Assembly (NCBI GenBank): GCA_016185465.1
Contig: JACPNO010000086.1
Span: 1-32,209, forward strand
Source: Candidatus Solibacter usitatus
GTDB taxonomy: Bacteria > Acidobacteriota > Terriglobia > Bryobacterales > Bryobacteraceae
Length of the DNA: 32,209 bases
Reading direction: 5' to 3'
The notes beneath the pieces are model-generated. The model saw only the letters and a list, made by a program, of their open reading frames with translations, searched no databases and was not told the origin of the DNA. The translations under genes and the position numbers were made by a program. This document shows, in pieces, positions 11,074 to 28,419 of the stretch (the stretch's first letter is position 1; every line of letters starts with the position of its first letter).

Positions 11074-12690
11074 TTACTTCACGTTGATCGTGCCCCGGCA
11101 GTTGGCCGCGCCGCAGCGGCACGGTACTCGCGTCCCTTTTTTCGAAAACTTGTAGTCCAGAAAAAGTTCTTCACCGGCGTTGATCTGGCGTTTGCTGAAA
11201 TAGAGAATTTGGCCATGGAGCCTGCGAACCCTGATGTTGGGATCACAGCAGTGGTTGACGTACTGCGCGCCGCTGCCGCCGACGTGTCCATCAATCGCCC
11301 AATGCTTGTCCAGGCGGAACAGATAGTGAAGTTTGCGCCCGGCGCGAAGGTTGGCCTCGGAGTGAGTAAGCCGCTCGCCGGTATATTCGATCACTTCCTT
11401 GCCGGCGGGAATGGTTTCCTCGGCAAACAGACCCCAGCGATGGATTCTGGACGGCCGCACCGCTAAGCGAAATCGCGCCACTTTAGGATTGACTTTGCGT
11501 TTCCCGGCTTGGGCGGCGGTGGTCTTCAGATCCGTTTGAATCCGCTTGGCGCGCCTTTCCGCGGCGGCGGCTTCGGCCTGCAGCAGGCGCGCGTAATTCA
11601 CCAGCGCGGTGGCCACGTGGGGGTGCGCTGCCCCCAGGTTGCTTTCAAAAATTGCCAGAACGCGCTCGTAAATCGGCCTGGCTTCGGAGAACCGCTCCAG
11701 CGTTCGGTAGAAGACACCCAGGTTGTTGAGGGTCGTGGCCACATCGGGGTGGTTGGGTCCCAGGTGTTTTTCCTTAATCGCGAGGACACGCTTGTAGAGC
11801 AGCTCGGGCTTTACCGCGTCGCCCTGAGCGTGATGCAATGCCGCCAGGTCATTCAAGGTCGAGGCAATTTCCGGGTGATTGCGCCCGTAAGTCTTTTCGC
11901 CGATAGCAATGGCGCGCCGATAGAGCGATTCCGCTTCCGGATATTTCTTCAGGCCTCCCAGGATTGCCCCTAATAAAGACAAGTCCGCAGCCAGGTCCGG
12001 ATGATTCGGGCTGAGAGCGCGTTGGCGAACCTGCAATGCCCGGCGGGCGAAGGGCTCAGCGGCGGCGTGGCGTCCGCGCTCATGTTCGAGCGCGCCTAAA
12101 TTATGGTACGCGCCGGCGACTTGCGGATGACCGGCGCCCCAGGCCTTTCTGGCAATGGCGAGGGAGCGCTGGTACCGCTCGGCTGCCTGGCGAAAGCGCC
12201 CTTGCGATCGAAACAGAAGCGCCTGTTTATTCAGCAGGGTCGCAAGATAGGGATGGCGGGCGCCAAGGGTTTGTTCGGCCAGAGCCAGCGCGCGCTGGTA
12301 CAGAGGCTGGGCCTCTTGCAACCTGTCCTGCCTGCGGTAAAGATCGGCCACGCTGCTAAGGATTTGGATGTGAAGGGTGTCGATATCCACGCTGCGCTCC
12401 GACGTTTGGGCGATATCGAGCGAACGCAGATAGAGTTTTTCGGCTTGTTCGGGCTCCGCCTGGTGCTGGTAGGTGCTGGCCAGGGTGTGAAGCACATTGG
12501 CGACGTCAGGGTGCTTAGGGCCGAGGGTGGATTCTAGAATTCGGAGGGAACGGAGGCAGAGGGGCCGGGCTTTGAGGTGCTTGCCTTGGGCGCAATAGGA
12601 AGCCGCGGCGTCGTGGAGGCGGTTTGCCAGCTCCAGCAGGTCGCGGCTTCTCGATGTGTTTGCGTCATGTGTTTTCTTTGCCTGCGGCAC
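11074..12690 (-). CDS. Kinesin-light-chain-like TPR protein fused to a SET methyltransferase domain
   Basis: A 538-residue cytosolic protein without signal peptide. Residues about 18-375 are TPR_12-type repeats of about 42 residues, each closing with 'LGxxHPxVAxxLxNLAxLY' (for example EKHLGPNHPDVATTLNNLGVFY). A basic linker, 377-405, joins them to a SET domain at about 406-516: RIHRWGLFAEETIPAG (SAM-binding loop), EVIEYTGE, AQYVNHCCDPN (the NHS/CxxPN pseudoknot) and GEELFLDYKF with the catalytic tyrosine. A post-SET CRCGAANCRG supplies three zinc cysteines (524, 526, 531). All hallmark residues of an active protein-lysine methyltransferase are present. The start is a GTG at 12690, the first available in frame; the ribosome site is poor. 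Two lysine-rich microprotein genes end 47 bases upstream on the same strand, behind a sigma-54 promoter, and are candidate substrates or ligands of the TPR platform. Confidence 0.9.
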   Translation of the reverse strand: MPQAKKTHDANTSRSRDLLELANRLHDAAASYCAQGKHLKARPLCLRSLRILESTLGPKHPDVANVLHTLASTYQHQAEPEQAEKLYLRSLDIAQTSERSVDIDTLHIQILSSVADLYRRQDRLQEAQPLYQRALALAEQTLGARHPYLATLLNKQALLFRSQGRFRQAAERYQRSLAIARKAWGAGHPQVAGAYHNLGALEHERGRHAAAEPFARRALQVRQRALSPNHPDLAADLSLLGAILGGLKKYPEAESLYRRAIAIGEKTYGRNHPEIASTLNDLAALHHAQGDAVKPELLYKRVLAIKEKHLGPNHPDVATTLNNLGVFYRTLERFSEARPIYERVLAIFESNLGAAHPHVATALVNYARLLQAEAAAAERRAKRIQTDLKTTAAQAGKRKVNPKVARFRLAVRPSRIHRWGLFAEETIPAGKEVIEYTGERLTHSEANLRAGRKLHYLFRLDKHWAIDGHVGGSGAQYVNHCCDPNIRVRRLHGQILYFSKRQINAGEELFLDYKFSKKGTRVPCRCGAANCRGTINVK

Positions 12691-12716
12691 AAGTCGTGTC
12701 CAATAACCGTGCCATT

Positions 12717-12741
12717 CTAGCCTATTCCGGGCTGCGGCTAG
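12717..12741 (-). other. Small hairpin between microprotein B and the TPR-SET gene
   Basis: CTAGCC at 12717-12722 pairs with GGCTAG at 12736-12741 across a 13-base loop. The distal arm contains the TAG stop of microprotein B. It could be an RNA processing or partial-attenuation element that lets the microproteins outnumber the methyltransferase. The stem is short and may be chance. Confidence 0.25.
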
Positions 12742-12863
12742 CTATGCTTGAAGTGGCCGGCGCGGACGGCGGACTTCACTTTCAGGTTCTTGCTGTCGCG
12801 AACCAACGTCTCGCGGCGGCTCAGGCTTTCCATTTCGGCGTTGAGGTTGATCTTGGTCGTCAT
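12738..12863 (-). CDS. Microprotein B (41 aa), tandem paralogue
   Basis: ATG at 12861-12863 to TAG at 12738-12740, preceded by AAAGGAGAA with about seven bases of spacing, an excellent ribosome site. The 41-residue product begins MTTKINLNAEMESLSRRETL and continues VRDSKNLKVKSAVRAG, then ends HFKHS. It shares 35 of its first 36 residues with microprotein A upstream; only the C-terminal tail differs. Five lysines and four arginines give it a strong positive charge. It has no signal peptide, membrane segment or recognised domain. Near-identical DNA could mean recent duplication, but the conserved ribosome site and the intact frames of both copies support real genes. It sits 47 bases before the TPR-SET gene and shares its transcription direction. 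Confidence 0.8.
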   Translation of the reverse strand: MTTKINLNAEMESLSRRETLVRDSKNLKVKSAVRAGHFKHS

Positions 12864-13041
12864 TTTCGTTTCTCCTTTGTCCAGCAGTGACTAGAGGGTT
12901 TTCAAGTTCATGCGGCCGGCGCGGACGGCGGACTTCACTTTCAGGTTCTTGCTGTCGCGAACCAACGTCTCGCGGCGGCTCAGGTTTTCCATCTCGGCGT
13001 TCAGGTTGATCTTGGTTGTCATTTTCTTTTCTCCTTTGTCC
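12755..13041. repeat. Tandem duplication of a 128-base unit carrying the microprotein genes
   Basis: Bases 12755-12882 and 12914-13041 are the same sequence with five differences (about 96% identity), offset by 159 bases. Each unit holds a ribosome site and the first 36 codons of a microprotein. The 31 bases between the units, and those after the second, are unrelated, so each copy has its own stop and C-terminal tail. Confidence 0.9.
12891..13022 (-). CDS. Microprotein A (43 aa), first gene after a sigma-54 promoter
   Basis: ATG at 13020-13022 to TAG at 12891-12893, with AAAGGAGAA just upstream. The 43-residue product begins MTTKINLNAEMENLSRRETL, continues VRDSKNLKVKSAVRAG and ends RMNLKTL. 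It differs from microprotein B by one residue (N13 versus S13) in the first 36 and then has its own tail. The basic, helix-compatible sequence has no secretion signal. Its promoter-proximal position, about 28 bases after the predicted sigma-54 transcription start, makes it the lead gene of a likely microprotein A - microprotein B - TPR-SET operon. The conserved body with a variable end resembles precursor peptides, but no cleavage motif, Cys or Ser/Thr-rich core is evident. Function unknown. Confidence 0.8.
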   Translation of the reverse strand: MTTKINLNAEMENLSRRETLVRDSKNLKVKSAVRAGRMNLKTL

Positions 13042-13060
13042 CTAAGGACACCCTCACTAA

Positions 13061-13077
13061 TGCAAGCCCCGTGCCAA
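13061..13077 (-). promoter_or_regulatory. Sigma-54 (RpoN) -24/-12 promoter of the microprotein/TPR-SET operon
   Basis: Read on the minus strand the site is TTGGCACGGGGCTTGCA, matching YTGGCACGRNNNTTGCW at every specified position, with GG and GC ten bases apart. Transcription would start near 13050, leaving a leader of about 28 bases that contains the ribosome site of microprotein A. Confidence 0.85.
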
Positions 13078-13150
13078 AAGCCTAAAATCGCGGATTGTTT
13101 GGTAAGTGCCGCTGTTTCAATGCCAGCCCAATGGCGAGCGGCGGCCGTTC

Positions 13151-13185
13151 TATCTGATCGGATAAAATCCCTAACTGATCGGATA
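13151..13185. promoter_or_regulatory. Paired upstream activator repeats for the sigma-54 promoter
   Basis: CTGATCGGATA occurs at 13154-13164 and 13175-13185, exactly 21 bases apart, so the copies face the same side of the helix. The first is part of TATCTGATCGGATA, a near palindrome (TATC-n-GATC-n-GATA). Lying about 100-135 bases upstream of the predicted start, they fit the placement of enhancer-binding-protein sites. The rest of 13078-13297 shows no gene. Confidence 0.55.
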
Positions 13186-25998: not shown

Positions 25999-28419
25999 TT
26001 AGCGCGCGAGGCTGAGTATCCGCACCATTGTCGCAAGGCACTCCACGACATAACGCTGTTGCCGGAGTTGCAGGGGAAGTCCGTTTATACGCCTCTCGAT
26101 ATATCTAGCCGCGTTGAGGATTTCCTCTCGCTCAGGGTCCGCAAGGGCTCCGACGAATGTATCGTAGAACTCGCCAATGCGAGTAGCGACCCGATAAGGG
26201 TAATGCAATCGTTCCGTTTGGATTTGTTCAAAGATGATCTTTCGTGCATCACGGAACAGCTTTAGACCAATCTCTTTGGAAGCACTTCTGCAGGCCTTCT
26301 CCAATAGCAGGCGGGCGTAGTGGTTATCGATCTTATGGGTGTCATAGCTGTGCTGCCGCCTCGCGAAAGAATACGCGGATTCGAAGTAGCGATCCGCCCG
26401 TTCGAAGTCCTCGAATACGAGGGCGGCAATAGCATATTGCAACCAAAACTGCGGGTTGGTTTGACAGTACGCCAAGTTCTTAACGCGCTCGTAATATCTG
26501 AACGCAGCGTCGCGGCGCTCGCTCAAGCTCCGATTTGGGAGAATCATTTCGATTTGGCTAAATTGAAGCAAACTCCTCAGCGTCTCGTTGTATAAGCGAT
26601 ACGACGTCCCAAATTTATCTAGAGATCGCGCCATTCCGGCAAGCACGTCGACAGTAATATTCGGATCGGCAATCCGGCTTAATACGAACCGCGCTGCGAC
26701 CGAAGAGCGATTTATGACATCACCGCTTCTAAAATTGACGAATTCAGCCACGCGTTCGTTGCGCTGGAAAGCCGCGTTCAACACACGGTTCCCAAAGAGA
26801 TCAGCCAACGTGTCGATTGTTACCCTCTGGCTAAGGACCGTCAGGGCAAGAATACCGAGTAGAACGTCGTAATATCCGCCTTTAGTATCCAACGTTCTCA
26901 AGACGTCGGAGAACCGTGATTCGATCTGGGGTGCTTGAAATAGATCGACGAGAATCGACTGCCACTCACCGTGGCAGCGTGATCGAAGCGATTGAACCCG
27001 TGCTCTTCTAGGCAGTGCGGATTTCTCTCCCCAGAGGCCGTACCGTTCGAATATTTCGTTGACCCGTTCGAGTTCGAGCTCGTCCATTCTTTCTATATCG
27101 ATTTCTTGGACTAAGCGCATCCTAAACATGTCTTCTATCCGGTCGACCAGAACGTCGTTCGGTCCGGTTCTAGCCGTGAGGAGAAGCGACATATGCTTAT
27201 TTCGATGCTTCCCTAACGTGCTCAACGCGTCCATCCAGCCCGGATACGAATCTATGATTAAAAGAAACGGTTTATCGGATGAGCAGAGGTGCGAGAGTTC
27301 TGCCTCCATGGAAGGCGAGCGTTTAGATAGCGAGTATACGGGTCTCCCTGCGGCAAACGCCAGGCCAGCGACGGTTTCGACGACCATCGACTTGCCGTTC
27401 CCGAGGTTTCCGTGGACGATAACGATGTTGACGGGATCATCGAGAGCCTTCAAGATCACCCCGACGCAGGTGCGTTGAACCATATATGGCTGGACGCTTC
27501 CGTGAACCGAATTCCACGCAAGTTGTCTATCAACGAGGCCACGTAAAAAGAGATCGAATATCGCTCGGTCCGACACCGCCGTCGTATCGGTCAGGCGCGT
27601 CTCATAGGGCTCCACGCAATACCAGATCGGATGGGTGCGTTCCCTGGGAGAATACCGAGCACGCTTTGTTTCGAGTTGCTTACCGAACCAGGCAGAGTCG
27701 AAGCGCTTAGGGGTGCCGTATCTGACGGCGCGGCTTTCGGTTTGGCGTGAGGGACTAGTGCCAACCACGAAGAATGTCTTTTCCTGCAACAATTCAGTGG
27801 ATGCGAGAAGCCGGGCAATATCAAGATCGACTAGGGAGTATCCGACAAAAAAGACTGATTTAGCCATCGATAAGTCAAGGCGAAACACGGACGACCATGG
27901 TGACGCCTCGATGGTAGCGGCAATGTAGCTGCTGTCAGTCAGTTTCAGCTCATCCCCGAGCGATGAAGTGACGCGTTCGACATACCCGTTAAAATGAACG
28001 CAAATTGATTCGTTTTGATCAAAGTCGCTCGGATGTTCGGATAGAGTGACGGGCCGGAACGGGTGTGCGGACTTGCCTGAAGCGATTTCAAGCACATTGT
28101 CATAGTTCGTCGTGTACACTCTTCGCCACGGCACGCTTCCAATCGACGTGTGGTGCTTGGCAACCGTCGTTGCTTGGAAGCTCTCAAGGACCTCTTTCGC
28201 AAGCGCGGCCGGGCCTCGGCTTTCAAGAAAGACCTCGGCGGCATCTTGGAGGTCAGTTGGCGTTGGCAGACCCACCGCAGACGCCAATCTATTCGCGAAG
28301 GCAGTCCCCAGTTCAAACGGTTGAAGGCGACTATTGATCGCTCCGAGCGAAAAGCCAGCACCTAGGAACAGCACAGATTCGCCGTCCAATGCATGTTCTA
28401 GCGCCGAATCAAAATCCAC
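25999..28419 (-). CDS. SIR2-STAND NTPase, probable antiphage defense protein
   Basis: An 806-residue cytosolic protein. The N-terminal SIR2-like NAD-consuming domain (about 1-215) has VLFLGAGFSLG (20-24 core), RVYTTNYDNVL with the catalytic-site Asn, VHFNGYVE with the His of the HxxG motif, and FFVGYSLVDLDIARLL. The central STAND NTPase (about 310-520) has Walker A HGNLGNGKS (337-344) and Walker B FLLIIDSYPGW (386-390). The C-terminal 280 residues are helical and TPR-like (YYERVKNLAYCQTNPQFWLQYAIAALVFEDFERADRYFESAYSFARR). SIR2-STAND proteins of the Avs5/DSR type deplete NAD+ on sensing a phage protein; that role is known for the family and inferred here. The start is a GTG at 28419, without a clear ribosome site. 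Base composition is visibly less GC-rich than the flanking genes, suggesting acquisition. It stands alone. Confidence 0.88.
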   Translation of the reverse strand: MDFDSALEHALDGESVLFLGAGFSLGAINSRLQPFELGTAFANRLASAVGLPTPTDLQDAAEVFLESRGPAALAKEVLESFQATTVAKHHTSIGSVPWRRVYTTNYDNVLEIASGKSAHPFRPVTLSEHPSDFDQNESICVHFNGYVERVTSSLGDELKLTDSSYIAATIEASPWSSVFRLDLSMAKSVFFVGYSLVDLDIARLLASTELLQEKTFFVVGTSPSRQTESRAVRYGTPKRFDSAWFGKQLETKRARYSPRERTHPIWYCVEPYETRLTDTTAVSDRAIFDLFLRGLVDRQLAWNSVHGSVQPYMVQRTCVGVILKALDDPVNIVIVHGNLGNGKSMVVETVAGLAFAAGRPVYSLSKRSPSMEAELSHLCSSDKPFLLIIDSYPGWMDALSTLGKHRNKHMSLLLTARTGPNDVLVDRIEDMFRMRLVQEIDIERMDELELERVNEIFERYGLWGEKSALPRRARVQSLRSRCHGEWQSILVDLFQAPQIESRFSDVLRTLDTKGGYYDVLLGILALTVLSQRVTIDTLADLFGNRVLNAAFQRNERVAEFVNFRSGDVINRSSVAARFVLSRIADPNITVDVLAGMARSLDKFGTSYRLYNETLRSLLQFSQIEMILPNRSLSERRDAAFRYYERVKNLAYCQTNPQFWLQYAIAALVFEDFERADRYFESAYSFARRQHSYDTHKIDNHYARLLLEKACRSASKEIGLKLFRDARKIIFEQIQTERLHYPYRVATRIGEFYDTFVGALADPEREEILNAARYIERRINGLPLQLRQQRYVVECLATMVRILSLAR

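Follow-up and report, generated by a model that had tools for sequence, protein, structure and literature searches.

Twin basic microproteins and a predicted TPR-SET lysine methyltransferase behind a sigma-54 promoter in Candidatus Solibacter usitatus: a gene pairing that recurs within the family

The locus described here lies in a 32,209-nucleotide stretch of Candidatus Solibacter usitatus DNA (the whole stretch analysed, called the window below), and our preferred reading, to which we give a probability slightly above one half (about 0.55), is that it represents a recurring module in compact form, switched by sigma-54, in which a small basic peptide is paired with a dedicated TPR-SET enzyme that would bind and methylate the peptide or its partner. 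It was found that a short open reading frame (ORF) matching the profile of the peptide family was present directly upstream, on the same strand, at four of five TPR-SET loci, whereas none of 55 other SET loci had one (60 distinct loci, the upstream sequence being 600 nt or longer at 51 of the 55). The initial annotation of this DNA had asked whether such ORFs always precede TPR-SET genes, and this held at those four loci, the gene at the fifth being divergent. Because the pairing of microprotein and TPR-SET gene recurs, a dedicated partnership between them is likely.

The coordinates of the features are given in Table 1. The description of the locus in the initial annotation was borne out: the RpoN consensus was perfect, the two tandem Lys/Arg-rich genes (K+R content 23% and 22%) were each preceded by the ribosome site AAAGGAGAAA, and the TPR protein, the GTG start of which follows the second microprotein gene after 47 bases, had intact SET and post-SET domains.

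Table 1. Positions in the window of the features of the microprotein/TPR-SET locus.
Feature	Position	Strand	Basis
Sigma-54 (-24/-12) promoter, perfect consensus	13061-13077	minus	TTGGCACGGGGCTTGCA, 0 mismatches to YTGGCACGRNNNTTGCW
Two direct TATCCGATCAG copies, candidate activator sites upstream of the -24 box	13175-13185 and 13154-13164	minus	Putative function
Microprotein 1 (43 aa)	12891-13022	minus	ORF; rank 2 of 417 window ORFs by family profile
Microprotein 2 (41 aa), tandem duplicate	12738-12863	minus	ORF; rank 1 of 417 window ORFs by family profile
TPR-SET protein (538 aa), GTG start	11074-12690	minus	Pfam TPR_12 E 6e-82, SET E 8e-20
SET and post-SET (residues 396-538) within the TPR-SET gene	11074-11505	minus	Pfam SET, residues 419-514
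TPR superhelix and long linker helix (about residues 17-396)	11503-12642	minus	Pfam; AlphaFold2

The twin microproteins were compared with the VKAG/NHN repeat peptides ('..VKTxVKAGG..NHNQT..') by means of a profile made without the window from 17 two-unit peptide starts that were reached through genome G467. Applied to the 417 ORFs of the window, this two-unit profile gave E values of 1.9e-5 and 3.1e-5 for the twins and 0.31 for the next ORF, and the score of twin 1 was 18.5, compared to a highest value of 11.0 among 5000 shuffles, 4354 of which were scored. The matches of the twins to a profile made from the G467 repeats alone were poor and not significant (E 0.07 and 1.1). A profile of all units was partly circular, because L055 and L072-L076 among its loci had come from patterns of the window motif, and therefore the two-unit profile, the seed locus of which was found via the TPR half of the window protein, was the one relied on.

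Other searches with the peptides were negative within their scope. A window microprotein used as the sole query retrieved nothing reliable from 396 genomes of the phylum or 61 of the family, and an alignment of the twins retrieved nothing reliable from viral contigs or genome contigs. In 16 weak microprotein matches (L003-L018), no short ORF passed the motif filter. No match above cut-off to Pfam or NCBIfam was obtained for any peptide tried; two family peptides had NCBIfam matches below cut-off, the best of them to the L34 ribosomal protein (E 0.0019, 18.4 bits relative to a cut-off of 37.65). PADLOC reported nothing for the twins and a generic TPR match only for the window TPR-SET protein. 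Elsewhere in the window, an 806-aa protein on the minus strand (25999-28419), which by eye has a SIR2-like start (VLFLGAGFS..) and a P-loop NTPase-like middle, is possibly a defence gene.

The twins contain one VKAG unit only. Neither they nor the other three TPR-SET microproteins have the NHN/QHN segment or additional VKAG units; therefore, the SET-linked microproteins were classed as a separate reduced subfamily rather than as typical members of the family. The single unit and the missing NHN segment in the window would fit an explanation in which the short ORFs descend from a repeat-peptide gene by decay and persist solely as a leader for the transcript of TPR-SET, but a similar reduced form is present in genomes G452 (twice) and G494, and the twins have ribosome sites, differ at 4 of 36 shared codons with 3 of the 4 changes synonymous, and exhibit a GC content at codon positions 1, 2 and 3 (0.45/0.36/0.89 and 0.48/0.38/0.88) that is a coding pattern, such that we consider this explanation improbable.

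In the TPR-SET protein, what we take to be the key motifs of the SET domain (WGLFA, EYTGE, NHCCDPN and EELFLDY) and of the post-SET domain (CRCGAANCRG) were intact. The Pfam match, these motifs and the post-SET cysteines identify the domain, at the level of sequence, as a SET lysine methyltransferase, and the nearest solved chains were those of H3-lysine-4-specific (Set1) and KMT2 methyltransferases (6ven, H3K4-specific, E 2.3e-26). The AlphaFold2 model was confident for the TPR part (block-mean pLDDT 83-98 over residues 11-390), and the SET part was poor and not usable because it was modelled with no alignment. When the TPR model was compared with known folds, the TPRs of kinesin light chain (KLC), several of them solved with cargo peptides, were nearest, and the TPR of O-GlcNAc transferase was also among the matches. 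In O-GlcNAc transferase, a transferase domain is attached to a TPR superhelix. The window protein shares a KLC-like TPR fold with kinesin light chain, and differs from both of these proteins in that its catalytic domain is a SET domain and in being bacterial and linked to a microprotein.

A search of 150 family genomes with the TPR half, at E 1e-70 and among the best 13 or fewer candidates scored per genome, returned the window protein itself and one G467 gene only. This G467 gene (E 1.1e-77 to the window TPR half) directly follows a repeat-peptide gene with 15 matched units, and is itself followed by HlyD and C39-peptidase ABC (C39-ABC) genes. The C-terminal TPR-SET part of the window protein was 52% identical to the TPR-SET protein of genome G577. 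The presence in one window protein of both a TPR of the kind found at peptide loci and the G577 type of TPR-SET suggests a functional link.

The distribution of TPR-SET genes was evaluated in 237 family genomes at a threshold of E 1e-52. Among the best 11 or fewer candidates scored per genome, five genes were found in four genomes (that of the window, G452 with two, G494 and G577), and a gap from 3e-66 to 2e-56 separated these matches from the rest. A SET protein of the window type was found in 122 of 150 family genomes, and among the 16 SET matches with an open frame of at least 240 aa, TPRs preceded the SET domain only in the window, G452 (two) and G494. One stand-alone SET protein of this common kind, in G467 (L080, 3157-3624), is located beside a gene that by eye resembles an ammonium transporter. 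The abundance of this kind of SET protein, together with the 55 such loci that have no peptide upstream, would agree with a TPR-SET protein whose targets, like those of other bacterial SET enzymes, are chromosomal proteins or other proteins of the cell, next to microproteins that are unrelated neighbours; however, the short ORF tracks the TPR-SET gene (four of five as opposed to none of 55), which makes a chance neighbourhood very unlikely.

At the two G452 loci (37 aa each) and in G494 (35 aa, or 46 from the first start), the same-strand ORF ended 23-29 nt before the TPR-SET gene. These ORFs (MKTKQKMNQAIEQVVLRDIPAGMPVKTRIRAGLKIKL and two relatives) matched profiles made without the window, and the one at G452:C287 had an E value of 0.013 with the two-unit profile and of 0.00013 with the all-unit profile. 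At G452:C457, a 21-aa ORF, MKTKTNVKAGVNCRKAGDKGE (L117, 5679-5744, plus strand), is oriented divergently to the microprotein gene of the TPR-SET locus. The fifth TPR-SET gene, in G577, starts divergently from a repeat-peptide gene and is flanked by two such genes on the opposite strand; one G577 repeat peptide ends '..NHNQTLVRDNRGLKVKTRVKAGYKAI', which is close to the '..RRETLVRDSKNLKVKSAVRAG..' of the twins. Its neighbours include a separate family TPR gene, a protein kinase gene and an ECF sigma gene.

Four G467 repeats used as a query at E 1e-4, with the best 18 or fewer candidates scored per genome, found the peptide family in 13 of the 237 family genomes, including 21 matches in G452, and missed the window. 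With the window added, TPR-SET genes were present in 4 of 14 peptide-bearing genomes and in 0 of 223 without a peptide (P 7.8e-6), a group that may include missed carriers because no more than 18 candidates per genome were scored and the G467 query missed the window. When the window was left out, the values were 3 of 13 and 0 of 223 (P 1.3e-4); the association draws on four genomes from a single family, one of which supplies two of the five loci, and the large size (8.5-12 Mb) of the three other carrier genomes is a possible confounder.

The sigma-54 promoter was the only perfect match among 16 window sites with up to three mismatches to the -24/-12 pattern, which taken together were not above chance (mean of 19.4 in shuffles). 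A best upstream score of 12 out of 12 was obtained in 0.10% of 7200 random 300-nt segments from the same loci, a control that retains true sites. There were no copies of TATCCGATCAG in the window beyond the two in Table 1, and between 10900 and 13400 no terminator-like site was found on the minus strand and no sigma-70-like promoter was found. The promoter and leader could be aligned, down to the start codon, with those of the G467 repeat-peptide gene, the sigma-54 promoter of which is TTGGCACGGCAGTTGCA; the alignment score was 11.5, compared to a maximum of 10.5 over 5000 shuffles. The genome to which the window belongs has an RpoN gene and seven sigma-54 activator matches, none of them on the window's contig. 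A second -24/-12-like site, with two mismatches to the 17-base pattern, occupies 12699-12715 on the minus strand; the GTG start codon of TPR-SET follows very closely, after 8 bases.

The initial annotation had also asked whether a -24/-12 site always accompanies the pair, and this was not the case: the window was the only one of the five TPR-SET loci to have such a site, and the scores before the three other TPR-SET short ORFs (7, 8 and 8 of 12) were at the chance level. Two other repeat-peptide loci do have one: scores of 11 or 12 out of 12 were found before 4 of 29 peptide ORFs, which represent three sites (window, G467 and Labilithrix), relative to 0.43% of random segments. The G467 and Labilithrix loci are also the two peptide loci that have an activator gene. 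In G467 the activator is divergent from the peptide gene and contains FHA, GAF and sigma-54 interaction domains (FHA-GAF-AAA+), and in the Labilithrix metagenome-assembled genome (MAG) it was called from the sigma-54 interaction domain alone. Sigma-54 control is not general, and there seem to be two control styles across the peptide loci, one using sigma-54 with its own activator and the other an ECF sigma factor with a kinase. In G467, an ORF (L079, 8549-8944, minus strand) includes another short stretch that looks peptide-like, MKTKTNVKAGRKAGVDFNENETSGLRVQTSLKAGRRAN, located between the genes for the repeat peptide and the activator, and in G452:C163 (L123, 3802-11384) the genes alternate in the order ECF sigma, peptide, kinase, peptide, kinase, peptide.

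The VKAG/NHN repeat peptides are apparently a wide, multi-phylum and undescribed bacterial family, which on sequence similarity extends from Acidobacteriota to MAGs labelled Planctomyces, Labilithrix, Kuenenia and Actinomycetota (labels that may be wrong). A DNA pattern for LKVKSxVRAG matched the window and four other places in 396 phylum genomes, a count without meaning because the reversed control gave 4. One of these matches, in genome G326, was recognised on reading as a short protein of four repeats ('VRTGVKAGGPxLQHNK'), downstream of which are a TPR gene, an HlyD gene and a C39-ABC gene. A tighter pattern applied to genome contigs of 84,980 species returned five stretches, all five with repeat peptides (Planctomyces, Labilithrix, Acidobacteria, which is the G326 contig, Actinomycetota and Kuenenia), and the G326 peptide used as a query gave weak matches in 10 of 297 phylum genomes. 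A DNA pattern run on viral contigs had five matches, and no family peptide was seen on reading the translations. In the open-access literature, we found no description of a microprotein/TPR-SET system or of the peptide family.

Gene neighbourhoods were compared at the 18 of 20 loci that had a peptide by the motif filter (L147 and L149, with no peptide by this filter, were left out). A family TPR gene was present at 10 loci (window included), C39-ABC at 7, HlyD at 6, a sigma-54 activator at 2 and an ECF/kinase pair at 8 (7 from the similarity listing plus L111, where the ECF gene was read and confirmed by Pfam); these assignments were made by similarity with Pfam run on some, several of the contigs are short, and G452 and G596 give more than one locus. 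Pfam confirmed the C39 and HlyD assignments in G467 and other loci. The initial annotation had taken homologues lying mostly away from TPR-SET genes as evidence against its proposal, and this was in part what was found, in that most of the examined relatives of the peptides have as neighbours a SET-less TPR gene, whether or not an exporter is also present, or ECF/kinase genes. As judged from the profile matches, the SET-linked peptides share ancestry with these VKAG/NHN repeat peptides, which elsewhere are often paired with a similar TPR protein and a peptide-processing exporter. This ancestry and pairing suggest that the original role of the SET-linked peptides was probably that of cargo or ligand for the family TPR.

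The exporter genes at these loci, and the possible resemblance of VKAG(G) to a C39 cleavage site, raise the alternative that the microproteins are export precursors that are methylated by the TPR-SET protein and then processed and exported by an unlinked C39-ABC transporter, in the manner of RiPP tailoring. However, there is no exporter in the window, the C39 part of the exporter was unmatched in the window's genome (a 2.3 Mb draft in 91 contigs, about 73% complete), no C39-ABC match was found in the stretches read around the four other TPR-SET genes, and the NHN segment is missing, and so we regard this alternative as unlikely. What the peptide family has in common with bacteriocin-type C39-ABC exporters and RiPP clusters is the occurrence of C39-ABC, HlyD and a second ABC gene at part of its loci; it differs in that none of its peptides that were tried matched Pfam or NCBIfam above cut-off, a TPR protein is a frequent partner, and the window is without an exporter.

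For the preferred module of peptide and dedicated enzyme, the following sequence of events is proposed. A sigma-54 activator, probably acting at the TATCCGATCAG repeats, would switch on the twins and the enzyme as one transcript; the KLC-like TPR groove would bind the peptide, as the fold and the gene pairing suggest; and the tethered SET domain would methylate lysine residues, either in the peptide or in a protein brought in or licensed by it. Most likely, the peptide would sit in the TPR groove next to the SET active site, as a substrate or as a ligand. There is no invariant lysine in the SET-linked microproteins, and the motif lysine varies (VST in G452:C287), which weakens the simplest version, in which one lysine is methylated; because of this variation, substrate and ligand are given similar weight.

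If the peptide were a ligand and not a substrate, it could serve as an intracellular or re-imported signal, or as a docking factor; binding of the peptide to the TPR would then turn the SET enzyme on another protein. The similarity of the TPR fold to peptide-binding KLC, the variable lysine, and the lack of a SET domain in most family TPRs beside the peptide are consistent with this, although no other substrate is evident near the window locus and Pfam shows none of the HTH or phosphatase outputs of known peptide receptors; it is a possibility that we regard as somewhat doubtful. Also tentative is a specific form of the substrate view, a peptide-methylation system in which a Set1/MLL-like SET domain and a KLC-like TPR groove would act on histone-tail-like microproteins (MKTK.., ..VKTR..RAG), which, once methylated, would act as signals, the system being an offshoot of the multi-phylum repeat peptides linked to sigma-54 or to ECF/kinase genes.

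Among known systems, the bacterial SET lysine methyltransferases tabulated in one source, such as NUE and RomA/LegAS4, are entered there as acting on host histones, and have SET and post-SET motifs in common with the window protein (PMC3980110). Compared to these tabulated enzymes, the window SET domain is distinct in being fused to TPRs and in having a recurring microprotein gene in front. RRNPP-type receptors are TPR proteins encoded next to a small peptide gene and switched by peptides. The window has the same layout of a TPR gene beside a peptide gene, with a SET domain in place of the HTH or Rap output. The TPR stretch of the window protein scored 153.5 bits to the TPR protein of the FxSxx-COOH system (NF040586), far under the cut-off of 300, and by eye the twins have no C-terminal FxSxx.

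To our knowledge, no native partner is well known for the SET enzymes of non-pathogenic bacteria. The gene order at the five loci predicts a small, concrete partner for one bacterial SET subfamily. The same data point to a family of repeat peptides repeatedly encoded near TPR proteins, exporters and regulators, which would constitute a new system of peptide signalling or antagonism.
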